In this document: positions 19,914-63,939 of the stretch, piece after piece
How the letters are laid out: the number at the start of each line of letters is the position of its first letter
How positions within the stretch are numbered: the stretch's first letter is position 1
Assembly (NCBI RefSeq): GCF_005239225.2
Contig: NC_133301.1
Coordinates: forward strand, 7,341,157 to 7,405,156
Source of the DNA: Populus alba
Taxonomy: Eukaryota > Streptophyta > Magnoliopsida > Malpighiales > Salicaceae
Direction: 5' to 3'
Length of the DNA: 64,000 bases
Made by a program: the position numbers and the translations under genes
Notes under the pieces: model-generated
Told to the model about the DNA's origin: nothing
Seen by the model: only the letters and a program-made list of their open reading frames with translations
The model's database searches: none

Positions 19914-19925
19914 TGCCCCCTCAAG

Positions 19926-40245: not shown

Positions 40246-42430
40246 ATCGGTGTCTGACCAAAGAACACAAGATAACCACATGTGGATTTTCTATCATCAA
40301 CACTAACTACCCAATCTGCATTTGTAAAACCATGTAAGGCAAAGGAAGGACTATGAGTAATATGGAGGCCCTGTGTTGATGTACCCCTAAGATAACGCAA
40401 GATGCATTTAACGACAACTTAATGAGAATCTATAGGAGTATGCATAAACTAACAAACTCTGTTAATAGCAAAGCAAATATTCGGTCTCATAAAAGTGAGA
40501 TATTGAAGAGCACGTATAATTTGAAGAAAGCGTGTAGCATTAGAAAATAAAGGATTTGGCAATATTGTAGCTTTGGATGTAGAGATAGGAGTATAAACAG
40601 GTTTGCAAGATAACATACCAGCACGAGTGACGATGTGAAGTGTATATTTATGTTGTCAGAGCAGAAGACCCATACCAGTAGACTGAACCTCAATACCCAA
40701 AAAATAGTGAACAGGACCCAGGTTGCGAAGCTTAAATTCTAAGCTCAGTAGCTGGATTAGTGGTTGAAATAGAAGGGAGTTACTACCCGTAAGAAAAATA
40801 TAATCAATATAGACCAGGAGATAACAAATATCAATAATAGTAGAGAAGATAAATAATGAGGTATCCACCTTAGAGGCATGAAAATCGATATATAGCAAGA
40901 AGTCATTTAGACGAGTGTACCATGCCCGCGGAGCCTGTTTTCAAACCATATAGGACTTATTACAATTTGCAGACATGAGATGGGAGAGTTGAGTCAACAA
41001 AAACTGGGGGTTGTTTCATGTAGACCTCTTCATCAAGAATGTCATTGAGAAAGGCAATATGGATATCAAGTTGATGAATTTTCCAATCACACGAAACTGT
41101 AATGGAGAAGACCAATCTGACGGTCGCCTATTTGATAAGAGGACTAAAGGTTTCAGAGTAATCAATACCTTCCTACTAGGTGAAACCTCTAGCAACTAAA
41201 CACACCTTTTACCTTTCAACGCTGCCATCAGCTTTATGTTTAATCCTGTGCACCCACCAGCTACCAACAACATTCATGAAAAGGTGAAATGACACTGAGG
41301 TCTAAGTTTTGTTAACGTGTAAGGCCTGAATTTTCTCTTGCATAGCATGATGCCATGCCTCATACCTGTTAGCATCATTAAAAAAAAGTGGCTCATGAGT
41401 GGAAGGAGAAACTACCCGGATGAAGGAGGCAACAGAGACTGCAGTATTTGCTGTGGATAGTGCTATCTAGGACGGAGGACCATGTGATGTTGACGAGCAA
41501 CTGGGCATGGAGAAGACGAGCTTGTACCTGGAAGTTACTGAAGAGGATATGAGGAGAGGTCTATACAGAGCTGCAGACTAGTTGGAAAATCAGTGGAGGA
41601 ACTGGTCTCCACTGCAGACATTGGTGAAGCTGCGACAGAACCGGGCTGTTCTGCTGCAGCATACCTGAAAACATACACATTAGGTGATGGGGAACTTGTT
41701 CCTATGTAATGATCATTGCAAAGACAAGCATACAGTGATAGTATGGCAATGTTGGATGGTGATGAAGGGGTGATAGAATTTGTGGGTTAATAGGTGGTCT
41801 GTTGGGGTGCGGCAGAGGGCAGAACTAGGTTGTTGTTGGGACTGATTTAGAAAGTAGTAGGGTGAAATAGTGGAGGAGAGTTCAAGGATAGAAGGTGTAT
41901 AGGTTGTGTGGAGAGTATCGGTGAATGTGTTACCTGTTCAAAATTCACAAAAGAAAAGACATTTTCTTAAAACGAACATGATAAGAGATATAAATACGAT
42001 GAGATGCTAAATTAAGACAACGATAACCAAGATGGGATGAGATATATACTAAGAACCCACATGGAGAGGATCGAAAATCTAATTTATGAGCATGATATGG
42101 ATGCAAAAAAAGGAAACAAAGACACCCAAAAGTACACAGAAAGTTATAATCAGGAGTACGATAAAACATACATTCAAATGAAGATTTATTTTGGAGAACA
42201 AGATTAGGCATACGATTAATAAAATATATAGATGGAGAACAAGATTAGGCATGCGATTAATAAAATATACCAATGATTCAAAAACATGGATCCAAAATCG
42301 CAATGGTGCCCTACACCGGGATGTGATTAATAAAATATACCAATGATTCAAAAATATAGTTCAAAAATCACAATGGTGCACTACACTGACCTAAACTTGT
42401 TAGGACAATTTCGATAATATATCGATGACG
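40246..42430 (-). pseudogene. Copia pol relic (element F)
   Basis: Minus strand, from right to left: integrase C-terminal part (41945-42351: FGCLCFLFLHPYHAHKLDF, SSHLGYRCL), RT (about 40656-41280, with LLVYIDYIFLTGSN where YVDD would stand) and RNase H (about 40250-40600), which is absent in element E. The catalytic YVDD has become YIDY. No LTRs found. A local duplication lies at 42180-42390. Confidence 0.78.
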
Positions 42431-44087: not shown

Positions 44088-44202
44088 TGATTAATACTTA
44101 AAAGTGCATGTTTATCAAGGTTTTATATCATCATTTTGCACTTGAAGTATCAATAACTCCTTAACTAAATCATGTTTTATAATAACAAGTTTGATACTAT
44201 AA
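44088..44202 (+). repeat. Left piece of the 5' LTR of element B
   Basis: It starts TGATTAATACTTAAAAGTGC and matches the first 115 bp of the LTR of A. The continuation is at 53833, after element A and one TATAA repeat. Joining the pieces gives an LTR collinear with that of A. Confidence 0.9.
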
Positions 44203-45951
44203 TGATTAGTACTTAAAAGTGCATGTTTATCAAGGTTTTATATCATCATTTTTGCACTTGAAGTATCAATAACTCCTTAACTAAAGCATGTTTTATAATA
44301 ACAAGTTTAATATTATAAGATACCTTAATTTATGGTAAATGCTCATTTTAAATGCAGAACTATCACATAAATAAAAGGATTGATTGATGAGTTTAAGCAT
44401 TGAAAGTTAAAGGACAAAGAGATGGCCAAACTTAGAAAAGAGATGTCGGTGCAGTCCAAACCGGAACATTGCTCGGTAATTGGATCATATCTGGAGCTCT
44501 AGATTTCGGATTTAGGTCCACTTTATATGGATGGAAAGGTAAGACAAAAGCCTACAACTTTCATGAGGAGCCCAAGATTTGAAAAGGTCATTTTGAAGTC
44601 CAAATTGAAGGAACAACGAAGAAGTCCGAAGCTGTCCTGCAGCCCAAACACTATTTAGTGTTCAGCCCATATCTTGAGTTCTAGAAGTCCAAATGACCTC
44701 ATCTTTTTTTTGTTGGAAAGCTGAGACAATTTCCTAGAACATTCTTGAGGATTCTGGGCAAATTATGATGTTAGCAATGACGTCTTGATCAGACAAGAAG
44801 ATAAGGATTGTTATCTAGTCAAGATGTGGCCACCCACTCATCAATTAGTCAACAAATCAATAGTTCCAAATTTTGGCCTATAAAAGGAGGCACTTACCAT
44901 GTATTGAGGCATCTTGGTTTCCAGATCAAGATCATGCTCTTGCTTTCTCTCTTTGTATTGCTTATGTTTTTCTTTCATTAATATCAAGTTTATGCACTTC
45001 ATTTCCTTCCTTTTACTTAGTTAACTTCTTTCTCATTTATGTTCTTATCTTGTCTATTTATGTTTCTTTCTTTCATTATGTTTAGCTAAGTTAATTATGT
45101 CAAGGTGAAAAGGGTACACTAATGGTATAAGAATAAGTATAATATAAACTTAACATGGACCTTAACGTTGGATACTAACATGTTTTATATTTGTTATCTT
45201 GTTCACTTTTAATACTTTGCTTGTTAAATGGTTAATCTAGATTTATGTTGTATAACACTTGGTACAACAAATACTTGGTACTTTCATAGCCCATACTGTA
45301 TGGTATAACCGACACCTGAGCTATGAAAGGGACTTGATTTGTTGTTAACATAAGTTATAATCATGAATGCCTGCCAACATTTACAAGTATTAGCTTTATT
45401 CGAATAAGATAACTAATGTAATCATGTTAACAATTTATAATCTGATTGGAACCTCCTTTATGTGTGGTTTCCAATTGAGTAATAAGAGTTTATATTATAC
45501 TTGTTTGAAGTACCATTAGTGGATCCTCTAACCTTGACATTCGTTTTTATCATTGTTTAATCCTTACATTAATCTTTTAACTCAAAGTTCTCATTAATTT
45601 CTTCATCTACTTCTATTACTACTACTACTACTACTATTATTTTTATATTGTTGTTGTTGTTATTTACATTCTGTAATATATCCCTTTGATCTTTTCATAA
45701 ACTCAGTATATAGGCTGGAAACCTGTGACCCGACCTTTTGGATCATTCTCAGGTGTAACAACGCCACGTACTGAGTATTATAATTATTGTTATTGTTATT
45801 GTTATTGTTATTGTTGTTGTTGTTGTTGTTGTATTGTTATTTATAATTTATACAATTAACCTCTCTGTGGTTCGACCCCGGTCTTGCCGGGTTATTTATT
45901 ACTTCGACACTCCTGCACTTGGGAAAAGACATCAAGCTTTTGGTCGTGTCA
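44203..45951 (+). repeat. 5' LTR of element A
   Basis: TG...CA termini (TGATTAGTACTT to GGTCGTGTCA). A TATA box is at 44879. Two simple-repeat blocks (CTA/TTG at 45614-45660, ATT/GTT at 45784-45832) and a TCTGTGGTTCGACCCCGG stretch lie near the end. The 70-residue open frame at 44873 is not a gene. Confidence 0.92.
44879..44886 (+). promoter_or_regulatory. TATA box in the LTR of element A
   Basis: TATAAAAG, preceded by GGCC. The same box occurs at 52748 (3' LTR) and 54393 (LTR of B). Expected to drive the genomic RNA of the element. Confidence 0.7.
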
Positions 45952-45957
45952 AGTTTT

Positions 45958-45975
45958 TGGCGCCGTTGCCGGGGA
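45958..45975 (+). other. tRNA-Asp primer binding site, element A
   Basis: TGGCGCCGTTGCCGGGGA lies 6 bases after the LTR end. This is the primer site characteristic of Athila-lineage elements. Confidence 0.92.
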
Positions 45976-46172
45976 GGTAAATTCTTGTATAAATTATAAT
46001 ATTTATTTTATTTTCTCTTTTCACTTTTCATTTTATTTAACTTTGTTTCTTTTGTTTCTTTTTCTTCTCTTTTTCTTTTCTTCCTTTATTCTCTTCTTAC
46101 AAGTGCATGAGAGTTTGGTCACGTACATTAAGTGGTCGACTTTGTAGGCTATCCTCATCATTTTCAGAAAAT

Positions 46173-48320
46173 ATGGCCGAAGAAGATAATCAATCGCTTC
46201 ATAATGAGAATAATGAGAATAACCGTATGAGAACACTTAGAGACCACATGAATCCCACAAGAACAAGTGCACCCTCATGCATAGTTTTCCCTCCTGATGC
46301 ATCTCATTTTAATTTTAAGCCAGGCATTATTCAACTTTTACCATCTTTTCATGGCTTAGACTTAGAAAATCCATACTTGCATTTAAGGGAATTTGAGGAG
46401 GTCTGTAATACCTATAATGACTCAAATTGTAGCATGAACACCATTCGATTAAAGCTTTTTCCTTTTTTCATTAAAAGATAAAGCTAAAACATGGCTACAA
46501 AATTTGAGACCAGGATCCATTCGTGCTTGGGATGATATGCAACAACAATTTTTAAAGAAGTTTTTTCCATCTCATAGAACAAACTCTTTCAAAAGACAAA
46601 TCATCACTTTCACTCAAAAGCCAGGAGAAAACATTTTACCAATGTTGGGATAGGTATCGAGATTTGCTTAATACTTGCCCACATCATGGTTTTGAAACAT
46701 GGAGATTGGTTTCACATTTTTATGAGGGTTTAACACCTAGAGATAGGCAAATGGTTGAATTGATGTGCAATGGAACTTTTGAAGATAAAGACCCTAATGA
46801 AGCAATGGAGTACCTAGACTTGCTAGCTGAAAATGCTCAAAATTGGGACACCACAGGTACTTATGAGGCACCAGGTAAAACTCAACCTCATACATCTAGT
46901 GGGGGTATGCACAACCTTAGGGAAGATCATGACCTCCAAGCCAAGTTTGCATCTTTAGCTAGAAAAGTCGAGGCACTAGAATTAAAAAAGAGTGGTCAAT
47001 TAAAATCTGTTCAAGACATTGTGTGTCAAATCTGTGAAACAAATGAGCATGCAACCAATGATTGTCCAACTTTGCCTTCTTTCAAGGAATGCCTCCATGA
47101 ACAAGCCCATGCTTTAAACAGTTTCCAAAGACCCAACCATAACCCATACTCCCAAACGTACAACCCTGGTTGGAGAAATCACCCAAATTTCAGTTGGAAG
47201 AGTGATAGAAACAATGCACAAACTTCACAGCCACCGTTTCAAGCACATCATAATTTTCAAAATTCTCATGGATATGCACCTCCTTATGCTCCACCTCCTA
47301 GAAGAAATTTTGAGGAAACATTGCATGCATTCATTGAAAAGCAGGAGACAATCAACACTCAACTTGCTCAAAGCATGACAGATTTTAAAGATGCTCTTGC
47401 AAAATTAACATCTGCTCTCAGTTTCCAAGAGAAAGGTAAGTTTCCTTCTCAACCACAGCAAAATCCAAAGGGGCAATACCATGCAAATGCAAGTAGTTCT
47501 GGAAGCCAACACATGGATCAAGTCAAATCAGTCATCACTCTTCGTAGTGGTAAGGTTATTGAAAAACCTATTCTTGAACCTTGTGAGAAAGATGATGAGT
47601 CTATCTCTGAGGGTAAGGAAGGGGTTGAACCTGAACATTGCAAAGAAAAGGCTGATTCCCCGCCAGCACTTCCATTTCCTCATGCCATGACCAAACAAAG
47701 GAAAGTCAATCACAACTCTGAAATCTTTGAAATTTTCAAACAGGTAAGGATCAATATACCTTTGTTGGATGCTATTAAACAGGTTCCTTCCTATGCTAAA
47801 TTTTTGAAAGATCTGTGCACTGTGAAGAGAAAACTGAATGTGAAAAAGAAAGCCTTTTTAGCTGAACAAGTAAGTGCCATTCTTCAAAACAATAATGCTT
47901 TGAAATATAAAGACCCTGGTTGTCCTACAATTTCTTGCTTTATTGGAGAACATAAAATTGAAAGAGCCTTACTTGATCTTGGAGCTAGTGTGAATTTACT
48001 TCCATATTCAGTTTTTCAAAGTCTCAATCTAGGTGAGTTAAAACCAACTTCTGTAACTCTTTTACTCGCCGATAGATCTGTAAAAGTGCCTAGAGGAATA
48101 ATTGAAGATGTGTTGGTACAAGTTGATAAATTCATTATCTTGTGGATTTTGTTGTCTTGGACACGCAACCTGTTGAAGCATGTAATTCATTTCCTATTAT
48201 TTTAGGACGTCCGTTTCTTGCAACTTCTAATGCATTGATTAATTGTAGGAATGGACTCATGAAGTTATCTTTTGGAAACATGACATTGGAGATGAATATT
48301 TTCAACATTTGCAAGCAACC
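46173..48320 (+). pseudogene. Athila gag-protease of element A, frameshifted
   Basis: Gag starts at MAEEDNQ (46173; an upstream in-frame ATG is at 46107). It reads HLREFEEVCNTYN, then breaks with one extra T in a T run near 46463 (6 T here, 5 in element B). It breaks again with one extra A near 46628. From 46664 a 513-codon frame runs through gag (FYEGLTPRDRQMVELM), a CCHC knuckle (CQICETNEHATNDC) and retropepsin (LLDLGASVNLLPYSV; the DLGAS form is usual in Athila). A missing base near 48135 ends it. The protease continues in another frame (LGRPFLATSNALINC) to a TGA at 48322, where B has an Arg codon. Confidence 0.9.
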
Positions 48321-48390
48321 TTGAGATGATAATGATTTACAAGAAGTAGATCTTATTGAAGAATTAGTTCATGATCAACTTGAATCTACT

Positions 48391-49158
48391 TTGAGTAAAA
48401 TTGAGTTGGATGAATCTGAAGATTTGCAAATGATTTATTCTCAGGAAGAAATCACGGATGAAAAAGGCACCAAAAATATTGATGTTGATCTTGTGTCAAA
48501 AGTGACAACAAATTTGACATTTGACATCCCACCAATCGATGATTACTTTCCTGAAGAATCCTTACTTTATCTCAGTTCAATGCCTTGGTTTGCTAAAAAT
48601 ATCAATTTTCTTGCAACAGGAGATTTACCAGCTCACTGGAGTACCGAAGACAAAGGAAAGTTTTTGAACGAAGTGAAGAACTTTTACTTAGATGACCCTT
48701 ACTTATTCAAAAATTGTCCTGATCAAATATTTCAAAAATGCATTCCCGACAATCAGGTAAGTACTGTCATTAAACTTTGTCATTCTGAAGCATGTGGGAG
48801 TCAATTCTCATCAAGAGAGACAACTGCAAAAATCTTACAAAATGGATTTTATTGGCCCACCATGTTCAAGGACACACATGCATTATGCAAAACTTGTGAA
48901 AATTGTCAAAAAGTTGATACTAGTCAAAACGTTTTGCTTTATAATTCTCGACTCCATTTATTTCCTGAAAAAATAAGATCACGATGGAGAGGTCCATTTA
49001 TTTTGAAACATGTGTATCCTTATGGGGCCCTTGATATTGAGAATTCAAAGAATGACAATGTTTTGAAGGTAAATGAACATCGTTTAAAAGCTTACTTTGA
49101 TGAGTTTCCTAGTGAAAATGAATCCATTGGTTTGAATAATCTTATTGATAAAGGTTGA
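48391..49158 (+). pseudogene. Deleted pol of element A: integrase ends only
   Basis: One open frame joins three pieces of pol: the spacer after protease (LQMIYSQE), the integrase zinc domain (HSEACGSQF, ILQNGFYWPTMFKD, CKTCENCQ) and the integrase C-terminal domain ([18 protein letters not shown]). Compared with element B it lacks about 1.6 kb (all of RT and RNase H; junction near 48450). It also lacks about 0.74 kb (integrase catalytic core; junction near 48930 at a TCAAAA microhomology). Both deletions leave the frame open, so a small fusion protein is conceivable, but it can have neither polymerase nor integrase activity. Confidence 0.88.
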
Positions 49159-49366
49159 TTATTTTGTTTTTCTCACATTTTTTTTTGCTTTTTAGTGTGA
49201 CTTTTGTTTTGCTAGTCTCTCACCCCGGTCAAATGGCGGATAACGGTACTCCGTGACTCTTAAGTCGGTTCTTTCAGTTTCCCAAATAACTGATATTTGT
49301 ATATATTTGTACAATTCTCTGCTCTTTCTCCCTTCTTTGAAAATTTTCCCCAATTCTAATTTTAAA

Positions 49367-49915
49367 ATGGACACCACTCTTGAAAAGTTGAAAAGGTATT
49401 TTCCCGCTCTGCCTCAGAATGCGATTACAAAAATTTACCGTGCTAGGTGTGCAAGATTGAGGTTGTTAATGAATCATGGAATTCCTGAAGATATTCGCTG
49501 GCTAATTGAAGCAAAGGTTCGATTATCAGGTGAGTCATCCAATTCTTTCATTTCACACATGCCTGGAACAGGTAAAAGCACTTTTGCAAAGAAACGTCGT
49601 GCAAAACGACTGAAAGTCTGTCACAGATGTGCCAGATGGACTTGTAATGCAAGATGTCGTTCTTTAGGAATGGTATCTGTAAACCGTGAAGATAAGATAC
49701 AATTCATTAAGGATGGCCTGAGTAAGGGGTCTTTAGATAATCTTTTGTTGACCCTTGAGACGCATCCTAGTGGAGATGTACATCGTGTAATTCATGATTT
49801 ATGGCCACAATTCCATAAAGAACATGATCGACTTAGTCTTGGGAATCTGACTAAAAAAGACCCTGTTTGCCAGTTTTTAAGAAAACTGGATGGGAAGCCT
49901 ATCCCCGACCCATAG
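49367..49915 (+). CDS. Basic Cys-cluster protein, carlavirus NABP-like, intact in element A
   Basis: 182 residues. The ATG at 49367 is chosen because the same ATG and following residues are kept in element B (61233). Residues 10-53 are helical-looking with GIPEDIRWLIEAKV. Residues 75-83 are strongly basic (KKRRAKRLK) and run straight into a Cys cluster, C85-x2-C88-x4-C93-x3-C97. Later FIKDG and a conserved C-terminal part follow. A basic run directly before CxxC, with the Arg-Ala-Lys spacing and later FIxxG, is the layout I know from carlavirus Cys-rich nucleic-acid-binding proteins (Viral_NABP family). I see resemblance, not proof. A plausible role is RNA binding or silencing suppression; unproven. 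It lies between pol and the LOG frame. The element B copy has two in-frame stops. Alternative: an Athila-specific accessory protein. Confidence 0.6.
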   Translation: MDTTLEKLKRYFPALPQNAITKIYRARCARLRLLMNHGIPEDIRWLIEAKVRLSGESSNSFISHMPGTGKSTFAKKRRAKRLKVCHRCARWTCNARCRSLGMVSVNREDKIQFIKDGLSKGSLDNLLLTLETHPSGDVHRVIHDLWPQFHKEHDRLSLGNLTKKDPVCQFLRKLDGKPIPDP

Positions 49916-50170
49916 AGGGCGTTTAAGCCGTTCTTGGACGTAAAACCAAGGGAAGATGTGAGCCACAATCACAACTACCTGTACATACACATGCTTTTTC
50001 AAAATAAATAATTAATAAAGAGAGAGAGAGAGAGAGAGTTTGTGAGACTACAGTTGGCCTACATATAGGTGGTATGATTGCATTTTCACTTTTTCATCTA
50101 TAAATTCTTCTCTTCCTTCCCTTCATTTCTACTCATCCCATATATTCATCAAATATAGAAGTGTGTAGAA
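49916..50170 (+). promoter_or_regulatory. Spacer before the LOG frame with (AG)n and TATA box
   Basis: It holds an (AG)n run (about 50019-50038) and TATAAAT at 50099-50105, 66 bp before the LOG ATG, followed by a pyrimidine-rich leader. Element B keeps TATAAAT at the same distance (61948). This could be a promoter captured along with LOG, or chance in AT-rich DNA. Confidence 0.4.
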
Positions 50171-50824
50171 ATGGCAGGTTCCTCAAGTCATCACATAAAA
50201 AATATTTGTGTTTTCGGTGGATCCAGTCCTGGGAAAGAAAAAGAGTTTTTAGAATCAGCAAATCATCTTGGTCGGGTACTAGCTGAGAGAAAGATTCATT
50301 TAGTGTATGGGGGAGGCAGCCTTGGGTTAATGGGAGGTGTTTCAATGGCTGCATTTTTAGGAGGCAGTCAAGTTTTGGGGGTTGTCCCCAAAGCTTTAGC
50401 AACTGGGGACATCATTGGAAAAACAATTGGAGAGGAACTACAGGTCCCAACAATGTCTAACCGACTGAATACCATGTTTAACCATGCTGATGCCTTCATT
50501 GCCTTACCAGGTGGTCTGGGCACATTGGAAGAGATCTTTCATATTTCATCTTGGGCCCAACTGCACATTCACCATAAACCTATAGGTTTGTTAAATGTTA
50601 ATGGTTTTTATGATAAGTTGCTGTCTTTCCTTGATCAAGCTGTGGAACAGGAATTTCTAACATCTTCGGCACGACGAATCATAATCTCTGCTGCTACTGC
50701 TGAACAATTGATTGACCAACTACAATCTTTCATCCCTGTCATTGATCCCTGCATGAGTCGTCTAGATTGGTCAACTAAGGAAAGCCGTAAAAAGCTTAGA
50801 TTAGATTTGAGCCTTCATCTGTGA
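50171..50824 (+). CDS. LONELY GUY-type cytokinin riboside 5'-monophosphate phosphoribohydrolase, in retrotransposon A
   Basis: 217 residues, intronless, open from start to stop. LOG enzymes release active cytokinin bases from their nucleotides in the cytosol. Family marks: VFGGSSPGKEKEF (residues 14-26), VYGGGSLGLMG (45-55), GVVPKAL (70-76), R98 in the MSNRLNTMF stretch (usual family form SMxxRK; here K is L), and ALPGGLGTLEEIF (111-123, usual PGGYGTxxE; here Y is L) with E120/E121. Then come SWAQLHIHHKPIGLLNV and a C-terminus ending KKLRLDLSL. Length is normal for plant LOGs. The L-for-Y form and the C-terminus remind me of the LOGL10-like plant clade. Host LOG genes have several introns, so an mRNA-derived capture is likely. 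It lies between pol and the 3' LTR of a young Athila element. Activity is untested. Confidence 0.9.
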   Translation: MAGSSSHHIKNICVFGGSSPGKEKEFLESANHLGRVLAERKIHLVYGGGSLGLMGGVSMAAFLGGSQVLGVVPKALATGDIIGKTIGEELQVPTMSNRLNTMFNHADAFIALPGGLGTLEEIFHISSWAQLHIHHKPIGLLNVNGFYDKLLSFLDQAVEQEFLTSSARRIIISAATAEQLIDQLQSFIPVIDPCMSRLDWSTKESRKKLRLDLSLHL

Positions 50825-51741
50825 AACCTTGTGTCTTTTGGTTTTATTAATAGCATATTATTTTGTTTTGTTACTTCTTATGTTTGTTCAAGTGTGTTTC
50901 AGGTTTGTCATTGTTCGCTGTTTCAGGTGATGTCTTCTATACTCTATCTTTCTACCTTCGAACATTGAGGACAATGTCTCGTTTTGGTTGGGGGGAGAGG
51001 GTAGTAGTTTAAAAAAAAAAAAATACTAACTTGCTAATTGTTTTTGCTATTATTAAAACCATTTGACAAAATTGTTATTAGGATGGCAGAGTATGGAATC
51101 AATTTTATTGACTCTAGAGACGCATCTTAGTAAGTTTCATTACCAAGGTCTATCATAATACTTCTTGAAATATTCAGGTTTACAAACTCTCACATTGTTA
51201 TCACTTGATTCTGCTCCTATACTCATTTAACAAGTATTATTAAACCTTCATTTTCACACACACACTTTAACATATGATTGTGGGTTGCACATTGGATTAT
51301 TACAGTAATTATGTTCTTTTGTTGAAGGTAACAACTAAGGGTAAAGGATAGTATATAATTTGCAAAAAAAAAAAAAAAAAAAAAAGAAAAAAAAAAGATA
51401 GTATTGATGATAATAAAACGTGGATAAGTTTGGTTTCGTAGCCTCCATAACCTAAGCAATTAAGCTCGAAGGGGTGTTTTTAACACCTAATACCCTAAAG
51501 TCAACTGACTTGGGAGCTATTGGCCCAAAGCTTGTTACATGGGTTAAGGAGAAAAGCTTAAGGGAATCAAACATTGCACTATCTACGTATCAGTATCTGC
51601 AACCCGAGTTGTTAAGCTCGTAGGGGTGTCTCAACACCTAATGCCCTAAGACCAACTGGTCTGGGAGTCATTAGCCTAAAACTCGTTACATGGGTTAAAG
51701 ATACATTGTGTTTTAAGTTGTATGTGTATATAAATAAAAAG

Positions 51742-51774
<33 letters not shown>

Positions 51775-52071
51775 AGAAGAAGAAAATAATCCCAACCCAA
51801 GGAAGTTCACCTTAAACATTTGAACATAATATTGTTTTCTTCTAACAAAAGCCCCATCATCTATGTTTTCATTGAGCACACAAAAAGAAGGTTTATTAAT
51901 ATCTTGTTTACGAAGTATGAAGCAGGAATATAAATTTAATGAGAGTTTGTTTATCTGGATAGATTAATGGAAGTTGAATGATGAATGCCTTGCTTTGTGG
52001 AACTTGCAAATTGTTTCTCTATTTTAACGCTTTAGATTACTAGGGACTAGTAATAAGCTGGTTGGGGGGTG
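50825..52071 (+). other. 3' non-coding region of element A
   Basis: A first G-rich tract (GGTTGGGGGGAGAGGG, 50986-51001) follows a small hairpin, ACATTG-AGGA-CAATGT (50962-50977). An A-rich run is at 51363-51398. A duplicated motif about 160 bp apart (51460-51545 and 51610-51695) reads TTAAGCTCGWAGGGGTGT, CACCTAATRCCCTAA, then TTACATGGGTTAA. The second copy holds the palindrome AGACCAACTGGTCT. The working polypurine tract is probably GGTTGGGGGGTG at 52060-52071, touching the 3' LTR. Open frames on the minus strand here are T-run artefacts. Confidence 0.7.
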
Positions 52072-53827
52072 TGATTAGTACTTAAAAGTGCATGTTTATC
52101 AAGGTTTTATATCATCATTTTTGCACTTGAAGTATCAATAACTCCTTAACTAAAGCATGTTTTATAATAACAAGTTTAATATTATAAGATACCTTAATTT
52201 ATGGTAAATGCTCATTTTAAATGCAGAACTATCACATAAATAAAAGGATTGATTGATGAGTTTAAGCATTGAAAGTTAAAGGACAAAGAGATGGCCAAAC
52301 TTAGAAAAGAGATGTCGGTGCAGTCCAAACCGGAACATTGCTCGGTAATTGGATCATATCTGGAGCTCTAGATTTCGGATTTAGGTCCACTTTATATGGA
52401 TGGAAAGGTAAGACAAAAGCCTACAACTTTCATGAGGAGCCCAAGATTTTAAAAGGTCATTTTGAAGTCCAAATTGAAGGAACAACGAAGAAGTCCGAAG
52501 CTGTCCTGCAGCCCAAACACTATTTAGTGTTCAGCCCATATCTTGAGTTCTAGAAGTCCAAATGACCTCATCTTTTTTTTGTTGGAAAGCTGAGACAATT
52601 TCCTAGAACATTCTTGAGGATTCTGGGCAAATTATGATGTTAGCAATGACGTCTTGATCAGACAAGAAGATAAGGATTGTTATCTAGTCAAGATGTGGCC
52701 ACCCACTCATCAATTAGTCAACAAATCAATAGTTCCAAATTTTGGCCTATAAAAGGAGGCACTTACCATGTATTGAGGCATCTTGGTTTCCAGATCAAGA
52801 TCATGCTCTTGCTTTCTCTCTTTGTATTGCTTATGTTTTTCTTTCATTAATATCAAGTTTATGCACTTCATTTCCTTCCTTTTACTTAGTTAACTTCTTT
52901 CTCATTTTATGTTCTTATCTTGTCTATTTATGTTTCTTTCTTTCATTATGTTTAGCTAAGTTAATTATGTCAAGGTGAAAAGGGTACACTAATGGTATAA
53001 GAATAAGTATAATATAAACTTAACATGGACCTTAACGTTGGATACTAACATGTTTTATATTTGTTATCTTGTTCACTTTTAATACTTTGCTTGTTAAATG
53101 GTTAATCTAGATTTATGTTGTATAACACTTGGTACAACAAATACTTGGTACTTTCATAGCCCATACTGTATGGTATAACCGACACCTGAGCTATGAAAGG
53201 GACTTGATTTGTTGTTAACATAAGTTATAATCATGAATGCCTGCCAACATTTACAAGTATTAGCTTTATTCGAATAAGATAACTAATGTAATCATGTTAA
53301 CAATTTATAATCTGATTGGAACCTCCTTTATGTGTGGTTTCCAATTGAGTAATAAGAGTTTATATTATACTTGTTTGAAGTACCATTAGTGGATCCTCTA
53401 ACCTTGACATTCGTTTTTATCATTGTTTAATCCTTACATTAATCTTTTAACTCAAAGTTCTCATTAATTTCTTCATCTACTTCTATTACTACTACTACTA
53501 CTACTATTATTTTTATATTGTTGTTGTTGTTATTTACATTCTGTAATATATCCCTTTGATCTTTTCATAAACTCAGTATATAGGCTGGAAACCTGTGACC
53601 CGACCTTTTGGATCATTCTCAGGTGTAACAACGCCACGTACTGAGTATTATAATTATTGTTATTGTTATTGTTATTGTTATTGTTGTTGTTGTTGTTGTT
53701 GTTGTTGTATTGTTATTTATAATTTATACAATTAACCTCTCTGTGGTTCGACCCCGGTCTTGCCGGGTTATTTATTACTTCGACACTCCTGCACTTGGGA
53801 AAAGACATCAAGCTTTTGGTCGTGTCA
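52072..53827 (+). repeat. 3' LTR of element A
   Basis: 1,756 bp. It differs from the 5' LTR by G/T near 52450, one extra T near 52907, and two extra TTG units near 53700. The TATA box is at 52748. Confidence 0.92.
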
Positions 53828-53832
53828 TATAA

Positions 53833-55509
53833 GATACCTTAATTTATGGTAAATGTTTATCTTAAATGCAGGCCTATAACATAAATAAAAGGATTGACTG
53901 ATGATTTTAAGTATTGAAAGTGAAAGGACAAAGAGATGGCCAAACTTAGAAAAGAGATGCTAGTGCAGTCCAAACCGGAACATTGCTCGGTAATTGGATC
54001 ATATCTGGAGCTCTAGATCTTGGATTTAGGTCTATTTTATATGGATGGAAAGGTAAGACAAATTTCTACAACTTTCATGAGGAGCCCAAGATTTAAAAAG
54101 GCCGTTTTGAAGTCCAAACTGAAGGAACAACGAAGAAGTCCGAAGCTGTCCTGCAGCCCAGACACTATTTAGTGTTCAGCCCATATCTTGAGTTCTAGAA
54201 GTCCAAATGACCTCATCTTTTTTTTGTTGGAAAGTTGAGACAATTTCCTAGAACATTCTTGAGGATTCTAGGAAAATTATGATGTTAGAAATGACGTCTT
54301 GTTCAGACAAGAAGATAAGGATTGTCACCAAGTCAAGATGTGGCCACCCACTCATCAATTAGTCAACAAATCAATAGTTCCAAATTTTGGCCTATAAAAG
54401 GAGGCACTTACCATGTATTGAGGCATCTTGGTTTCCAGATCAAGATCATGCTCTTGCTTTCTCTCTTTGTATTGCTTATGTTTTGCTTTCATTAATAACA
54501 AGTTTATGCACGTCATTTCCTTTCCTTTACTTAGTTAACTTCTTTCTCATTTATGTTCTTATCTTGTTCATTTATGTTTCTTTCTTTCATTATGTTTAGC
54601 TAAGTTAATTATGTCAAGGTGAAAAGGGTACACTAATGGTGTAAGAATAAGTATAATATAAACTTAACATGGACCTTAACGTTGGATACTAACATGTTTT
54701 ATATTTGTTATCTTGTTCACTTTTAATACTTTGCTTGTTAAATGGTTAATCTAGATTTATGTTGTATAACACTTGGCCCAACAAATACTTGGTACTTTCA
54801 TAGCCCATATTGTATGGTATAACCGACACCTGAGCTATGAAAGGAACTTGATTGGTTGTTAACATAAGTTATAATCATGAATGCCTGCCAACATTTACAA
54901 GTATTAGCTTTATTCGAATAAGATAACTAATGTAATCATGTTAACAATTTATAATCTGATTGGAACCTCCTTTATGTGTGGTTTCCAATTGACTAATAAG
55001 AGTTTATACTATGCTTGTTTGAAGTACCATTAGTGGATCCTCTAACCTTGACATTTATGTTTATCGTTGTTTAATCCTTACATTAATCTTTCATCTCAAA
55101 GTTCTCATTAATTTTCTTCATCTTCTTCTTCTACTACTACTACTACTACTACTACTATTATTATTATTGTTGTTGTTATTATTATTATTATTTACATTCT
55201 GTTTATATTATATAATATATCTCTTTGATCTTTTCATAAACTCAGTATATAGGCTAGAAACCTGTGACTCGATCTTTTAGATCATTCTCAGGTGTAACAA
55301 CGCCACGTACTGAGTATAATTATTATTATTATTATTATTATTATTATTTTTGTTATTATTGTTGTTGTTGTTGTTGTTTTTGTTTTTGTCTTGTTATTTA
55401 TAATTTAATACAATCAACCTCTCTGTAGTTCGACCCCGGTCTTTCCGGGTTATTTATTACTTCGACACTCCTGCACTTGGGAGAAGACATCAAGCTTTTG
55501 GTCGTGTCA
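53833..55509 (+). repeat. Right piece of the 5' LTR of element B
   Basis: It continues the LTR cut at 44202. The TATA box is at 54393; ACT and ATT/GTT simple repeats are near 55131-55190 and 55317-55385. It ends GGTCGTGTCA directly before the primer site. The open frame at 54387 is the LTR artefact also seen in A. Confidence 0.9.
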
Positions 55510-55743: not shown

Positions 55744-58284
55744 ATGGCCGAAGAAGATAATCAATTGCTTCATAATGAGAATAACCGTATGAGAACATTT
55801 AGAGACCACATGAATCCCACAAGAACAAGTGCACCCTCATGCATAGTTTTCCCTCCTGATGCATCTCATTTTAATTTTAAGCCAGGCATTATTCAACTTT
55901 TACCTTCTTTTCATGGTTTAGACCTAGAAAATCCATATTTGCATTTAAGGGAATTTGAGGAGGTCTGTAATACCTATAATGACTCAAATTATAGCATGAA
56001 CACCATTCGATTAAAGCTTTTTCCTTTTTCATTAAAAGATAAAGCTAAAACATGGCTACAAAATTTGAGACCAGGATCCATTCGTGCTTGGGATGAAATG
56101 CAATAACAATTTTTAAAGAAGTTTTTTTCCGTCTCACAGAACAAACTCTTTCAAAAGACAAATCATCACTTTCACTCAAAAACCAAGAGAAACATTTTAC
56201 CAATGTTGGGATAGGTATCGAGATTTGCTTAATACTTGCCCTCATCATGGTTTTGAAACATGGAGATTGGTTTCACATTTTTATGAAGGTTTAACACCTA
56301 GAGATAGGCAAATGGTTGAATTGATGTGCAATGGAACTTTCGAAGATAAAGACCCTAATGAAGCAATGGAGTACCTAGACTTGCTAGCCGAAAATGCTCA
56401 AAATTGGGACACCACAGGTACTTATGAGGCACCAAGTAAAACTCAACCCCATACATCTAGTGGAGGTATGCACAACCTTAGGGAAGATCATGACCTCCAA
56501 GCCAAGTTTGCATCTTTAGCTAGAAAAGTCGAAGCACTTGAATTGAAAAAGAGTGGTCAATTAAAATTTGTTCAAGATATTGTGTGTCAAATCTGTGAAA
56601 CCAAGGAACACTCAACAAATGATTGTCCAACTTCGCCTTCTTTTAGGGAATGCCTCCATGAACAAGCCCATGCTTTAAACAGTTTCCAAAGACCCAACCA
56701 TAACCCATACTCACAAACGTATAACCCTGGTTAGAGAAATCACCCAAATTTCAGTTGGAAGAGTGATAGAAACAATGCACAAACTTCACAGCCACCGTTT
56801 CAAGCACACCATAATTTTCAAAATTCTCATGGATATGCACCTCCTTATGCTCCACCTCCTAGAAGAAATCTTAAGGAAACATTGCATGCATTCATTGAAA
56901 AGCAGGAGACAATCAACACTCAACTTGCTCAAAGCATGACAGATTTTAAAGATGCTCTTGCAAAATTAACATCTGCTCTTAGTTTCCAAGAGAAAGGTAA
57001 GTTTCCATCTTAACCACAACAAAATCCAAAGGGGCAATACAATGCAAATGCAAGTAGTTCCGGAAGCCAACACATGGATCAAGTCAAATCAGTCATCACT
57101 CTTCATAGTGGTAAGGTTATTGAAAAACCCATTCTTGAACCTTGTGAGAAAGATGATGAGTCTATCTCTGAGGGTAAGGAAGGGGTTGAACCTGAACATT
57201 GCAAAGAGAAGGCTGATTCCCCGCCAGCACTTCCATTTCCTCATGCCATGACCAAACAAAGGAAAGTCAATCACAACTCTAAAATCTTTGAAACTTTCAA
57301 ACAGGTAAGGATCAATATACCTTTGTTGGATGCTATTAAACAGGTTCCTTCTTATGCTAAATTTTTGAAAGATCTATGCACTGTGAAGAGAAAACTGAAT
57401 GTGAAAAAGAAAGCCTTTTTAGCCGAACAAGTAAGTGCTATTATTCAAAACAATAATGCTTTGAAATATAAAGACCCTGGTTGTCCTACAATTCTTGCTT
57501 TATTGGAGAACATAAAATTAAAAGAGCCTTACTTGATCTTGGAGCTAGTGTGAATTTACTTCCATATTCAGTCTTTCAAAGTCTCAATCTAGGTGAGTTA
57601 AAACCAACCTCTGTAACTCTTTTACTTGCCGATAGATCTGTAAAAGTGCCTAGAGGAATAATTGAGAATGTGTTAGTACAAGTTGATAAATTCATTTACC
57701 CTGTAGATTTTATTGTCTTGGATACAAAACTTGTTGAAGCATGTAATTCAATTCCTGTCATTTTAGGACGTTCATTTCTCGCCACTTCTAATGCATTGAT
57801 TAATTGTAGGAATGGACTGATGAAGCTATCATTTGGAAACATGACATTGGAGATGAATATTTTCAACATTTACAAGCAACCTAGAGATGATAATGATTTA
57901 CAGGAAGTAGACTTTATTGAAAAATTAGTTCATGATCAATTTCAAACCACTTCCAGTGAAACTGAGATTGATGAATCTGATGATTTACAAATGGTCTACT
58001 TTCAGGAATCAAAGGCATGTAATTGGAGACCACAAATTGAAGAATTGCCACCACGATCAATTGAGCCCATACCTTCAAGTGTTCAACCACCAAAACCTGA
58101 ATTGAAGTCGTTACCATTTAATCTCAAATACTCATTTTTAGGAGAAAATGAAACTTTTCCGGTAATAATCTCTTCCAAACCTAATGCACATCAAGAAGGT
58201 AAGTTATTACAGACTCTGAAAATGCACAAAAATGCATTAGGATGGACCATAGCTGACATAAAAGGAATTAGCCCTTTGATTTGA
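55744..58284 (+). pseudogene. Athila gag-protease of element B
   Basis: Gag starts at MAEEDNQLLH (55744). Breaks seen against element A: CAA to TAA at 56103, one extra T in the run near 56126, TGG to TAG at 56732, and CAA to TAA near 57011. One base is lost near 57491, so the protease (LLDLGASVNLLPYS) lies in the frame opened at 57481. The CCHC knuckle is CQICETKEHSTNDC. The last frame continues through the protease-RT spacer to a TGA at 58282, directly before the RT. Confidence 0.88.
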
Positions 58285-58299
58285 ACACACAGGATTTAT

Positions 58300-59253
58300 T
58301 TGGAGGAAAATGCTAAACCCTCTAGAGAAATGCAACGAAGGCTTAATCCTAATATGAAAGAAGTAGTGAAAAATGAAGTCATTAAGCTTCTAGATAATGG
58401 AATCATTTATCATATTCCTGACAGCAAATGGGTAAGTCTTACCCAAGTTGTACCCAAAAAGTCTGGAGTCACTGTGATAACAAATGAGAAAAATGAGTTA
58501 ATTCCAACTAGGACTGTTACTGGTTGGCGCATGTGCATTGACTATAGGAAACTTAATTCAATGACTAGAAAAGATCATTTCCCTTTACCTTTCATGGATC
58601 AAATCCTAGAAAGAGTTGCAGGTTATGAATTTTATTGTTTCCTAGATGGCTATTCAGGTTACAATCAAATTGAAATTGCATTGGAAGATCAAGAGAAGAC
58701 TACTTTCACATGTCCATTTGGTACTTTTGCATATCGAAGGATGCCTTTTGGATTATGTAATGCACCAGCCACGTTTCAGAGATGCATGCTTAGCATATTC
58801 AGTGATATGGTTGAACGTTTTCTTGAGATTTTTATGGATGATTTTTCTGTTTTTGGTGATTCATTTGATGATTGTTTGACTAACTTAGAAAAGGTTTTGA
58901 GCAGGTGTGAAGAAAAGAATCTTATACTGAATTGGGAAAAATATCACTTTATGGTAACAAATGACATTGTACTTGGTCACATCATTTCATCAAAAGGAAT
59001 TGAGGTTGATAAATCTAAAATCGAGATAATTGCCAACTTACCAACACCAAAATCTGTTAAAGATGTTAGATCATTCTTAGGACATGCTGGTTTTTACAGA
59101 AGGTTCATCAAAGATTTTAGTGTAATATCTAAGCCCTTGAGTAACCTTCTAACAAAGGATAATATTTTTGAATGGACTGAACATTGTGAAGAAGCCTTTG
59201 TTAAACTTAAAAACTTGCTTACTTCTGCTCCTGTCATTCAACCTCCTGATTAG
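58300..59253 (+). pseudogene. Athila reverse transcriptase of element B
   Basis: A 317-codon open stretch with the RT landmarks in order: VVPKKSGVTVI, WRMCIDYRKLNSMTRKDHFP, FLDGYSGYNQI, TCPFGTFAYRRMPFGLCNAPATFQRCM and the catalytic FMDDFSVFG, then GHIISSKGIEVDKSKI and the connection SFLGHAGFYRRFIKDF. The domain itself looks undamaged. It is cut off from gag-protease by TGA (58282) and from RNase H by TAG (59251), where Trp is expected. Confidence 0.9.
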
Positions 59254-59640
59254 TCATTACCTTTTGAAATAATGTGTGACGCTAGTGATTATGCCGTGGG
59301 TGCTGTCTTGGGACAAAAAAAAGATAAGAAACCTTATGTGATTTACTATGCAAGTAAGACTTTAAATAGTGCTCCAATGAATTACACCACCACTGAAAAA
59401 GAATTACTATGCAGTAGTATTTTGCTTGTGATAAATTTCAGGTCTTATCTAATTGGCCTCACCTGTTGTTGTTTTTAGTGATCATGCAACATTGAAATAA
59501 CTTCTTTCTAAGAAAGATTCTAAGGCTAGATTGGTGCGGTGGATTTTGTTACTTCAAGAATTTGATATCACAATCAAAGACAAGAAAGGCACCCGAAAAT
59601 GTTGTTGCAAGATCATTTGTCAAGATTGACAACAGATTCG
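59254..59640 (+). pseudogene. RNase H relic of element B
   Basis: Begins FEIMCDASDYAVGAVLGQ, with YYASKTLNSAPMNYTTTEKELL following. A frameshift occurs near 59420-59470. The later FSDHATLK and [15 protein letters not shown] pieces are in other frames. Confidence 0.82.
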
Positions 59641-59699: not shown

Positions 59700-61024
59700 T
59701 ACGATGCCTTGGTTTGCTAATATTGTTAATTTTTCTTGTTTCAGGATAATTGCCAGCTCATTGGAGTACCCAAGACAAAAAGAAGTTCTTGAACGAAGTG
59801 AAGAACTTTTAATTAGGATGACCCTTATTTATTCAAATATTGTCCTGATCAAATATTTTGAAGATGCAATTCCTGACAATGAGAGTAATTAGTGTCATTA
59901 ATTTTGTCATTCTGAGGCATGTGGGGGTCATTTCTCATCAAAGAAGAGACAACTGCCAAAATCTTACAAAGCGGATTTTACTGGCCCACCATGTTCAGTC
60001 GGACTCACATGCATTCTGTAAGACTTTGTGAAAATTGTAAAAATTGGGATCTATTTCAAAACGTCACATGATGCCTTTAAATCATATTCTTGTCATTGAG
60101 ATCTTTTGACTGTTGGGGTATAGATTTCATGGGTCCATTTTCCTCCATCATTTGGTTTCGTATACATATTAGTTGCAGTAGATTATGTTTTCAAATGGAT
60201 AGAGGCAATTCCAAGTCGAAACAGATGATCACAAAACAGTGATAAAGTTTTTTTGAATGACAATATTTTAAGTCGATTTTGGGAATCCTCGAGCCATAAT
60301 AAAGTGATGGGTGGAACACATTTCTACAACAAAGCCATTTGCTTCTTTAATGAAGAAATATGGAATACACACACAAAGTTGCCACCCCTTATCACCCTCA
60401 GACAAGTGGACAAGTAGGAGCTTGTTATAGGGAGATTAAACAAATCTTGGAAGAAAACAGTGAACCCTAATAGGAAAAATTGGTCTTTAAGACTTAATGA
60501 TGCACTTTGGGCTTATCGAACTGCTTATAAAACATCATTAGGTATGTCACCTTATAAACTAGTCTATGGAAAACCTTGTCACTTGCCTGTGGAAATTGAA
60601 CATAAAGCTTATTGGGCTATTAAAGCTTTTCAATTCAAAACCTTTGATGATGCTAGTCAGCTGCGAAAAATTGCAAATAAATAAGCTTGAGGAAATAAGA
60701 AATGATGCATATAACAATTCAAAAATTCATAAAGCAAGAATTAAAGAGTTTCATGACAAGAAAATACTGAGAAAAACATTCAATGTTGGTCAAAAAGTCT
60801 TGCTTTATAATTCTCGACTCCATTTATTTCCTGGAAAACTAAGATCAAGATGGAGCGGTCCTTTTATTGTGAAACATGTGTATCCATATGGGGCCTGTGA
60901 TATCGAGAATCCAAAGAATGACAATGTTTTCAAGGTAAATGGGCATCATTTGAAAGTTTATTTTGACAATTTTTCGGTTGAAAATGACTCTATTGAATTG
61001 AGTGATCCTGTATATAAAGATTGA
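59700..61024 (+). pseudogene. Integrase of element B, heavily frameshifted
   Basis: The zinc domain (about 59890-60050) and catalytic core (about 60110-60440, starting GIDFMGPF) are in changing frames with indels. From 60460 an open stretch gives [23 protein letters not shown] and [18 protein letters not shown]. From about 60690 another frame gives the C-terminal domain ([19 protein letters not shown]) to a stop at 61022. It supplies the parts that element A lacks. Confidence 0.85.
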
Positions 61025-61232
61025 TTCTTTTTCTCACATTGTTTTGTGTTTTATTGTATCTATTGTTTTGCTAGTCTCTCTTTCACCCCGGTCAAATGGC
61101 GGATAACGGTACTCCGTGACTCTTAAGTCGGTTCTTTCAGTTTCCCATGATAACTGATACCTGTGTATATAATTGTGCAATTCTCTGCTCTTTCTTCTTT
61201 CTTTGAATCTCCCATCCAATTCTCATTTGAAA

Positions 61233-61790
61233 ATGGACACCACTCTTGAAAAATTAAAAAAGTATTTTCCCGCTCTGCCTCAGAATGCGATTACAAAAAT
61301 TTACCGTACTAGGTATGAAAGATTGAGGTTGTTAATGAACCATGAAATTCCTGAAGATATTCGTTGGCTGATTGAAGCAAAGGTCTGATTATCAGGTGAG
61401 TCCTCCAATTCTTTCATTTCACACATGCCTAGAATAGGTAAAAGCACTTTTGCAAAAAAACATCGTGCAAAACGACTGAAAGTCTGTCACAGATGTGCCA
61501 GATGGACTTGTAATACGACATGTCGTTCTTTGGAAATGGTATCTGTAAACCGTGAAGATAAAATACAATTCATTAAGGATGGCCTGAGTAAGGGGTCTTT
61601 AGATAATCTTTTGTTGACCCTTGAGACGCATCCTAGTGGAGATGTGCATCGTGTAATTCATGATTTATGGCCACAATTCCATAAAGAACATGGTTGACTT
61701 AGTCTTAGGAATCTGACTAAAAAAAACCCTGTTTGCCAGTTTTTAAGAAAACTGGATGGGAAGCCTATCCCCGACCCATAGAGGGTGTTT
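61233..61790 (+). pseudogene. Carlavirus NABP-like Cys-cluster frame of element B, with two stops
   Basis: Collinear with 49367-49915. In-frame stops are at 61386 (TGA, where A has Arg) and 61695 (TGA, where A has Arg). The basic run and Cys cluster remain (HRAKRLK then CHRCARWTCNTTC), and the spacing of the four Cys is unchanged. Its presence in both elements shows that the frame belongs to the family rather than being a private insertion in A. Confidence 0.6.
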
Positions 61791-62019
61791 AAGTCGTTCT
61801 TGGACGTAAAACCAAGGGAAGATGTAAGCCACAATCACAACTACCTGTACATACATGCTTTGTCAAAATAAATAAATAGAGAGAGAGTGTGTGAGACTAC
61901 AACTGGCCTACATATAGGTGGTATGATTGCATTTTCACTTTTTCATCTATAAATTCTTCACTTCCTTCCATTCATTTCTACTCATCCCATACATTCATCA
62001 AATATAGAAGTGTGTAGAA

Positions 62020-62671
62020 ATGGCAGGTTCCTCAAGTCATCACATAAGAAATATTTGTGTTTTCGGTGGATCCAGCCCTGGGAAAGAAAAAGAGTTTTTA
62101 GAATCAGCAAATCATCTTAGTCAAGTACTAGTTGAGAGAAAGATCATTTAGTGTATGGGGGAGGCAGCCTGGGTTAATAGGAGGTGTTTCAATGGCTGCA
62201 TTTTTAGGAGGCAATCAAGTTTTGGGGGTTGTCCCCAAAGCTTTGACAAATGGGGACATCATTGGAAAAACAATTGGAGAGGAATTACAGGTCCAAACAA
62301 TGTCTGATCGACTGAATGCCATGTTTAGCCATGCTGATGCCTTCATTGCCTTACCAGGTGGTCTGGGCACATTGGAAGAGATCTTTCATATTTCATCTTG
62401 GGCCCAACTACACATTCACCATAAACCTATAGGTTTGTTAAATGTTAATGGTTTTTATGATAAGTTGTTGTCTTTCCTTGATCAAGCTGTGGAACAGGAA
62501 TTTCTAACATCTTCAACACGACAAATCATAATCTCTGCTGCTACTGCTGAACAATTGATTGACCAACTACAATCTTTCATCCTTGTCATTGATCCTTGCA
62601 TGAGTCACCTAGATTGGTCAGCTAAGGAAAGCCGTAAAAAGCTTAGATTAGATTTGAGCCATCATCTATGA
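62020..62671 (+). pseudogene. LOG-like frame of element B, two frameshifts
   Basis: Collinear with the LOG frame of A. One T is missing near 62143 and another near 62170, so the first 40 or so residues are out of frame with the rest. Downstream is open and keeps MSDRLNAMF and LPGGLGTLEEIF. Codons differ from A at many sites, so the capture predates the split of A and B. Conserved TATAAAT at 61948. Confidence 0.85.
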
Positions 62672-63939
62672 AACCTTATGTCTTTTGGTTTTATTAATAG
62701 CATATTATTTTGTTTTGTTACTTCTTATATTTGTTTAAGTGTGTTTCAGGTTTGTCATTGTTCGCTGTTTACAGGTGAATGTCTTCTATACTCTATCTTT
62801 CTACGTAGGACATTAAGGACAATGTTCTTGTTTTGGTTGGGGGGGAGAGGGTAGTAGTTTAAAAAAAAAATAACCAACTAACTGTTTTTGTTTTTAAAAA
62901 ACCATGTTGAAAAAAAAAAAACTGTTATACTAGGATAGGCAAGTAAAGAGGAATTATTCTTGAGACGCATCTTAGTAAAAAATTTTCTAATCGTTTATTT
63001 TGCAATATCATAACAAGGCCTATTAGAATACTTCTTTGAAAATATTTCAGGTTTACAAACTCCGCATTTGTGATCCACTTGATTCTGCTTCATTATATAC
63101 TCATTTAACAAGTATTATTAAAACCTTTATTTTCACAACACAACTTTAACATATGATTGTGGGTTGCACATTGGATTATATACATTATTTATATTCTTTT
63201 GTTGAAGGTAACAAACTAAGTGGGGAAGGGATAGTATTTAAATTTGCAAAAAAAAAATTTATTGATAATATTGATGATAATAAAACGTAGATAAGTTTGG
63301 TTTCGTAGCCTCCCTAACCTAAGCAATTAAGTCTGAAGGGGTGTTTTACCACCTAATACCCTAAAGTCAACTAACTTGAGAGCTATTGGCCTAAAGCTTG
63401 TTACATGGGTTAAGGAGAAAAGCTTAAGGGAATCAAAACATTGCATTATCTACGTATCAGTATCTTGCAACCCGAGTTGTTAAGCTCGTAGAGGTGTCTC
63501 AACACCTAATGCCCTAAAGACCAACTAATCTGGGAGTCATTAGCCTAAAACTCGTTACATGGGTTTAAAGAAAGATACATTGTGTTTTAAGTTGTATGTG
63601 TATATAAATAAAATAAAAAAAAAAAATAAAAAAAAATAATAATAATAATAATCCCAACCCAAGGAAGTTCACCTTAAACATTTGAACATAATATTGTTTT
63701 CTTCCAACAAAAGCCCCATCATCTTATGTTTTCAATATATTGAGCACATAAAAAGAAGGTTTATTAATATCTTGTTTAAGAAGTATGAAGCCAGTAATAT
63801 AAATTTTAATGAGAGTTTGTTTTATCTGGATACATTAAAGGAAGTTGAATGATGAATGTCTTGCTTTGTGAAAACTTAAATTGTTTTCTCTATTTAACGC
63901 TTTAGATTACTAGGGACTAGTAATAAGCTAGTTGGAGTG
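62672..63939 (+). other. 3' non-coding region of element B
   Basis: Same order as in A: G-rich tract (about 62836-62851), A-rich runs, the duplicated TTAAG/CTCGTTACATGGG motif (about 63325-63415 and 63480-63565) and an A/AAT-rich run at 63606-63650. The tract before the 3' LTR has decayed to GTTGGAGTG. Confidence 0.7.

Follow-up and report, generated by a model that had tools for sequence, protein, structure and literature searches.

What would an LTR retrotransposon do with a protein of the LOG family? The question is raised by an open reading frame that follows the pol remnants and precedes the 3' LTR of an element in the window, by which we mean the whole 64,000-nucleotide stretch of Populus alba DNA that was analyzed. 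The original prediction read this frame as a cytokinin-activating enzyme carried inside a young Athila element. We describe here the anatomy of the element, the recent movement of this copy, the one clade into which its LOG relatives fall, the change in their substrate pocket and the conservation of their C-terminal tail. Judging from the sequence, we tentatively prefer to a plain cytokinin enzyme the reading of a nuclear, TOPLESS-binding accessory protein that derives from LOG and whose chemistry is altered.

Elements A and B and the frames after pol

The LOG frame belongs to element A, a complete insertion from 44203 to 53827 (Table 1). Its two LTRs differ by one substitution and two gap events over 1749 columns, and the whole element is nested within the 5' LTR of a second element, B. 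The near-identical LTRs, the TSD and the nesting in the LTR of B therefore indicate recent movement of a LOG-bearing element, and the claim that the LOG gene is carried inside a young element is borne out. If substitutions accumulate at a few 1e-9 per site per year, the single LTR difference would date the insertion to about a hundred thousand years ago or less.

The description of A as a young Athila element holds for its age, its LOG gene and its Athila-like character, but it must be amended in that A is an insertion in B and lacks pol stretches that B has. Self-comparison indicates that A is without two stretches that B contains, 58009-59571 and 60065-60788; the breakpoints are A 48447/48450, equivalent to B 58008/59572, and A 48923-48932, which spans B 60064/60789. 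The first stretch carries reverse transcriptase and RNase H, and the second, for which Pfam gives no report, we take from its motifs to be most of the integrase core. With both stretches absent, A is not autonomous as it stands. It may have moved in trans, or its pol may have been lost after insertion.

The lineage of A and B is likely Athila. This assignment rests on the extra ORFs after pol and on the putative primer binding site, which presumably resembles the complement of the 3' end of a plant tRNA-Asp. The Athila ORF-1 domain PF03078, which is usually absent and is reported in 16% of Athila elements (PMC6317226), was not matched by the scanned ORFs of the window.

Fragments of a third element related to A and B are found at 29589-32246, where LTR and gag pieces are 77-88% identical. 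The window also contains a tandem array (33325-34807, 7.4 copies of a roughly 199-base unit) and a Copia-type reverse transcriptase fragment (19901-20617, PF07727), with a diverged match around 40469-41291.

Table 1. Positions in the window of the main parts of elements A and B.
Feature	Position	Strand	Basis or remark
TSD TATAA, left copy	44198..44202	+	5 bp
Element A 5' LTR (TG...CA)	44203..45951	+	Self-comparison
Putative primer binding site	45958..45974	+	17 bases, shared with element B
Remaining pol ORF of A	48391..49158	+	Integrase zinc-binding domain PF17921
NABP-like ORF	49367..49915	+	182 aa, RRAKR and Cys-rich motif; PF05515, PF01623
LOG-family ORF	50171..50824	+	Intact, ATG to stop, 217 aa; profile, structure-model and fold matches
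Tail KKLRLDLSLHL	50789..50821	+	Basic stretch and LxLxL (EAR-type); predicted disordered
Element A 3' LTR	52072..53827	+	Self-comparison
TSD TATAA, right copy	53828..53832	+	5 bp
Element B 5' LTR, larger part	53828..55509	+	First ~115 bp at 44088-44202, across A
Element B reverse transcriptase stretch	58285..59253	+	PF00078, 3.6e-29
Element B NABP-like ORF	61233..61781	+	Two in-frame stops
Element B LOG copy	62020..62671	+	Frame lost; self-comparison and alignment to A

The LOG frame is preceded by the integrase fragment and the small NABP-like ORF and followed by the 3' LTR. The original prediction supposed that a host mRNA had been captured; this is conjectural, though the frame has no introns. 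Its protein matches PF03641 at 1.2e-38 and PF18306 at 6.5e-14 in the profile search, and the Arabidopsis protein At2g37210 (2a33) at 4.9e-60. The predicted structure has the LOG fold (mean pLDDT 84.4), and its best match among solved structures is again At2g37210, with a TMt of 0.94 and 52% identity. An intact frame of normal length in A and a decayed second copy at the same place in B had both been predicted, and this is what the two elements contain. No other LOG or NABP matches were found by self-comparison in the window outside A and B.

The dN/dS of the A and B LOG copies is 0.47 (18 nonsynonymous and 11 synonymous changes), a weak measure that rests on a single pair and on small numbers and includes the decay of B. 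The window LOG protein found 7875 clusters; of the 120 listed, 118 are 81-96% identical to it, and the closest listed match from a named organism is a Populus alba protein (96%). Scans of a viral contig collection and a genome contig collection did not find the DNA of the element; the latter yielded 14 bacterial LOG loci.

The sequence CATCTATAAATTCTTC occurs at 50095-50110 in A and at 61944-61959 in B, with its TATA 72 bases 5' of the LOG start in both, and a GA repeat precedes it in both elements. Together these may form a core promoter of LOG's own. The polypurine-tract-like GGTTGGGGGG lies shortly 3' of LOG (50986-50995 in A and 62835-62844 in B), and a further tract of this kind adjoins the 3' LTR of A (52060).

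Two open frames follow pol in A, LOG and the NABP-like ORF, whose name refers to the nucleic-acid-binding proteins (NABPs) of carlaviruses. The NABP-like protein of the window scores 29.3 bits against Viral_NABP PF05515 (cut-off 23) and 24.9 bits against Carla_C4 PF01623 (cut-off 20.9). Its family consists of 610 proteins at E up to 0.001, and the organisms named among the 120 listed relatives are Populus and Xanthoceras. In the A2 sample, which comprises the window protein and 31 of these 120 relatives, both profiles are matched by 31 of the 32 members at E up to 0.01, the bit cut-offs being applied to the window protein. The structure model of this protein is of low confidence (mean pLDDT 54.5). 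The dN/dS of the A and B frames is 0.30 (14 nonsynonymous and 12 synonymous changes, which are small numbers from a pair in which B is decaying).

In the Acer gene model P0255, a relative of the NABP-like ORF continues into a LOG domain. It is identical to the window ORF in 89 of 150 columns, including a 32-column gap where the model is without the Cys-rich part, and Pfam reports the LOG part of the model alone. P0255 is thus a sign that the two genes follow each other in the same way in a different plant order.

Directly beyond the UAG that ends the NABP-like ORF, the reading frame continues as RAFKPFLDVKPREDVSHNHNY (49916-49990 in A, and at the same place in B). Nearly the same residues are present in Acer P0255, P0140 and P0223, with an amino acid instead of the stop, which hints at stop-codon readthrough or at a recently shortened NABP-like protein. 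The stretch 49200-49366 is 90% identical overall between A and B, and a 57-base block 5' of the NABP-like ORF (49221-49277 in A, 61084-61140 in B) is identical in the two; it ends in TTCTTTCAG, which is splice-acceptor-like.

Clade, pocket and tail of the element-type LOG proteins

A tree with host LOG genes, suggested along with the original prediction, places the many relatives of element type in a single clade. The more careful of two trees has 56 rows, one bacterial LOG locus as outgroup and an incompletely settled bootstrap; here 31 element-type LOG rows group together (100/100), and their stem is 0.95 changes per site long. The other, quickly built from 111 rows, has 47 rows in the element-type group (SH-aLRT 95). 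The latter tree has three bacterial LOG loci as outgroup, uses 22 of the 119 rows of set A3 (see below), omits P0242, P0097, P0243, P0105, P0244, P0251, P0257, P0305 and P0320 of the 96 rows of set A4, and contains P0255 trimmed to its LOG part; the tail columns were retained in both trees. Both trees have Populus, Xanthoceras, Melia and Reevesia as named members of the clade, and the 111-row tree also has Acer. This distribution would fit one capture followed by long retention, or a spread between plants, and we infer that the clade rows other than A and B are also carried by elements.

Two samples recur below. The Populus-type rows (set A3) are 119 rows including P0001, the window protein, and correspond to the 120 listed of the 7875 clusters minus the Xanthoceras models P0097 and P0105. 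The host sample of 62 rows consists of LOG1/LOG7-like genes, nearest to a Xanthoceras query.

In CgLOG, the enzyme of C. glutamicum, adenine is held by Met96, Lys100 and Glu121, the proposed catalytic pair is Arg99 and Glu122, and the residues thought by its authors to grip the prenyl group are Met96, His97, Lys100, Glu125 and Trp129 (PMC4979012). The same five residues are reported there for the enzymes of Arabidopsis, rice and Claviceps. Alanine at "crucial" AMP-site residues nearly abolished the activity, Ser19 excepted, but K100A is not mentioned by name (PMC4979012). A constant offset of one converts CgLOG numbers to those of the window protein, and so the prenyl set is at positions 95, 96, 99, 124 and 128.

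The window protein has the phosphate loop PGGxGTxxE, as PGGLGTLEE at 113-121, and keeps both catalytic residues, Arg98 and Glu121. Among the 119 Populus-type rows, the Arg is present in 112, the Glu in 115 and both in 109. At the five prenyl positions all 62 host rows have M, H, K, E and W, whereas the window protein has M, S, L, H and W; three residues are changed, and H96, K99 and E124 are each kept in none of the Populus-type rows. Position 96 in these rows is S (93), F (19) or Y (7), position 99 is L (81), M (35), I (2) or H (1), and position 124 is H in 116 and R, Y or Q in one each.

Fourteen clade rows were also chosen by hand; P0001 and P0090 are both Populus-type, and P0330 and P0305 lie outside the set. 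Eight of the 14 have M, H, (M or I), Q and W, P0314 has M, N, K, Q and W, and the host pattern M, H, K, E and W is retained in P0258 and both Sapindaceae-type rows of the set. These residue counts indicate that the side of the pocket that faces the cytokinin side chain was rebuilt and that the catalytic loop was kept. The pairwise identity of the 14 rows is 58% to 84% (median 63%), and 13 of their 15 active-site columns are invariant versus 56 of the 179 core columns (6e-6), or 13 of 14 with position 99 set aside (1e-6). Databases hold open frames, which favors conserved copies, though not the active site by itself.

Residues 202-217 of the LOG model, which include the tail, have a pLDDT under 50. 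Both LxLxL and DLNxxP are published forms of the EAR motif (PMC6283911). The basic stretch and a motif end all 12 of the rows chosen by hand outside the Sapindaceae-type group (LxLxL in 11, DLNxxP in one); these 12 include P0315 (Melia, Sapindales) and no Sapindaceae-type row. In set A5 the tail motif is present in 23 of the 31 clade rows, and the eight without it are seven Sapindaceae-type rows and P0305, which is kin of P0269; P0330, kin of P0310, has the motif. LxLxL lies within the last ten residues of 107 of the 119 Populus-type rows, and the other 12 have a changed leucine (two) or are cut short or altered earlier (ten). Neither LxLxL nor DLNxxP occurs anywhere in the 62 host rows; the chance of the motif in a random 9-mer is 0.008. 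Mean pairwise identity is 0.684 for residues 211-217 (0.763 without residue 216), 0.368 for the linker 187-206 (0.335 without W200) and 0.68 for the core, and two leucine columns of the tail are at 1.0.

On the 56-row tree the motif state changes twice, which would read as one gain and one loss. Full-length Sapindaceae-type rows (Xanthoceras, Acer and kin) end in, for example, KKRRLA or KRRRLD, and P0258 has the tail together with the old M, H, K, E, W pocket. Because P0258 and the Sapindaceae-type rows combine the two states differently, the changes in tail and pocket are not tied together.

What the LOG protein may do for the element

The explanation that we tentatively favor would run as follows. 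An Athila-like Ty3/gypsy lineage would carry a cassette of two genes 3' of pol and ahead of the 3' LTR, encoding a small Cys-rich NABP-like protein and a LOG-fold protein, and the latter would descend from a plant LOG gene, with a single source in our sample. The LOG-fold protein has retained its fold and phosphate loop and, in most rows, both catalytic residues; in most lineages its adenine/prenyl pocket was rebuilt and it bears a basic stretch and an EAR motif. The basic stretch would allow entry into the nucleus and the tail would bind TOPLESS corepressors, a LOG dimer presenting the tail twice. The dimer is assumed by analogy with C. glutamicum LOG. Host transcription or silencing would be altered in the favor of the element, any remaining enzyme activity would have an altered substrate, and the carlavirus-like partner might have an RNA-binding or silencing-suppressing role alongside.

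That the tail brings the LOG protein to nuclear TOPLESS is what we infer from its motif. Jsi1 is reportedly a plant-pathogen effector with an EAR motif. A closer comparison is the pathogen effector HaRxL21, like the LOG protein a foreign protein with the EAR motif at its C-terminus, which binds TOPLESS and needs the motif for its effect (PMC7446885). The binding was established by experiment in that case, whereas here there is the motif, and its carrier is a retrotransposon. In the same study, ten further effectors with LxLxL showed no TOPLESS binding (PMC7446885), and so the LxLxL in the LOG tail is a lead, not a proof.

The same explanation can be put in a bolder form. An effector-like LOG dimer with a rebuilt pocket would capture TOPLESS with its EAR tails beside a carlavirus-like NABP, and the cassette would then be a toolkit in the style of pathogens and viruses, which combines corepressor hijack with RNA-binding counter-defense. 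We regard this fuller picture as doubtful, although not far-fetched.

It is rather unlikely that the tail is instead a conserved short motif with another role, such as nuclear import, particle assembly or stability, and that the LOG core is a nucleotide enzyme of changed specificity that acts on the replication of the element. The basic stretch before the leucines would suit such a role, as would a rebuilt pocket next to a conserved catalytic loop. However, the alternation of LxLxL and DLNxxP is what one would expect of an EAR motif, even if DLNxxP is found in just one row.

Plain cytokinin activation would mean that the protein converts nucleotides to active bases and that the resulting division of host cells leads to more copying or transmission of the element. 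P0001 has what this would take in the LOG fold, the phosphate loop and Arg98 and Glu121, and most Populus-type rows have both residues. However, the three changed prenyl-group residues are kept in no Populus-type row, Lys100 of CgLOG, which is lost here, also holds adenine (PMC4979012), and the tail would be left unexplained. The changed pocket thus lowers the odds of plain activation, which we consider unlikely, and the prediction of an element able to raise active cytokinin is weakened.

A neutral passenger, that is, a LOG gene picked up by chance and copied without benefit, is quite improbable. Broken copies do exist, and the dN/dS between A and B rests on 29 changes that include the decay of B; yet the active site and the tail are conserved among rows with a median identity of 63%, and these rows belong to a single clade whose named members represent several plant families. 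Finally, it is hardly credible that LTRs came to flank a host LOG gene by accident, or that the copies belong to a host subfamily (LOGL10), as the annotation of some P. trichocarpa and P. nigra clade rows would have it, since chance flanking is contradicted for A and B by their shared LOG position and by the near-identical LTRs with a TSD, and neither the 81-96% identity of nearly all of the listed clusters nor the Acer model, where LOG is joined to a relative of the upstream ORF, agrees with a host gene.

Known systems and annotated host genes

The original prediction stated that no such case had been described. However, a YgdH domain has been reported in Gypsy consensus sequences from two Citrus species (C. 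sinensis and C. clementina) and, when the filter was relaxed, from P. trichocarpa, with remarks on the kinship of YgdH to LONELY GUY and on agreement with Steinbauerova et al. 2011 (PMC9289625). The LOG gene in the element is therefore known in kind, and a categorically new capture is ruled out. In the open-licence literature searched, PMC9289625 was the one paper found on LOG in elements; PMC7264820 had no match for the terms looked for.

The element described here shares with those Gypsy elements the extra LOG domain in Ty3/gypsy, Populus included. Section 12 of PMC9289625 names the domain and its host family; the tail, the pocket, the clade and the upstream ORF were not found there. The changed pocket, the tail, the one clade and the NABP-like partner likewise did not turn up in the accessible text of the open-licence literature searched. 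Orchid Gypsy elements with an ALKBH-like m6A demethylase (PMC9289625) offer a parallel in that they, too, have retained the domain of a host enzyme. The enzyme is a different one, and its activity was demonstrated in vitro, whereas the LOG protein is described from its sequence.

The window protein has the fold, the PGGxGTxxE loop and the catalytic Arg and Glu in common with host LOG proteins (the At2g37210 and At5g11950 structures), which are cytokinin riboside 5'-monophosphate phosphoribohydrolases. It differs from them in being about 50% identical, in its changed pocket, in its basic and EAR tail and in being borne by a retrotransposon. Its partner matches the carlavirus NABP profiles (PF05515, PF01623) above their cut-offs, but the ORF sits in an LTR retrotransposon and its structure model is of low confidence.

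To our knowledge, there is no earlier case of a plant LTR retrotransposon that encodes a corepressor-binding protein, and if the tail binds TOPLESS, this element would be the first known. The rebuilt pocket would point to a nucleotide hydrolase that acts on another substrate.

The clade also contains some proteins annotated as host genes. P0090, P0289 and P0104, from Populus trichocarpa and P. nigra, are annotated as LOGL10 and yet lie inside the element-type clade; they are possibly transposon genes, and such LOGL10 annotations may have been counted in host cytokinin families. The LOG-like models of Xanthoceras and Acer are possibly miscounted in the same way. The Xanthoceras models P0097 and P0105 have two LOG stretches in tandem, and P0242 and P0243 are longer models; perhaps the tandem models read across neighboring element copies.
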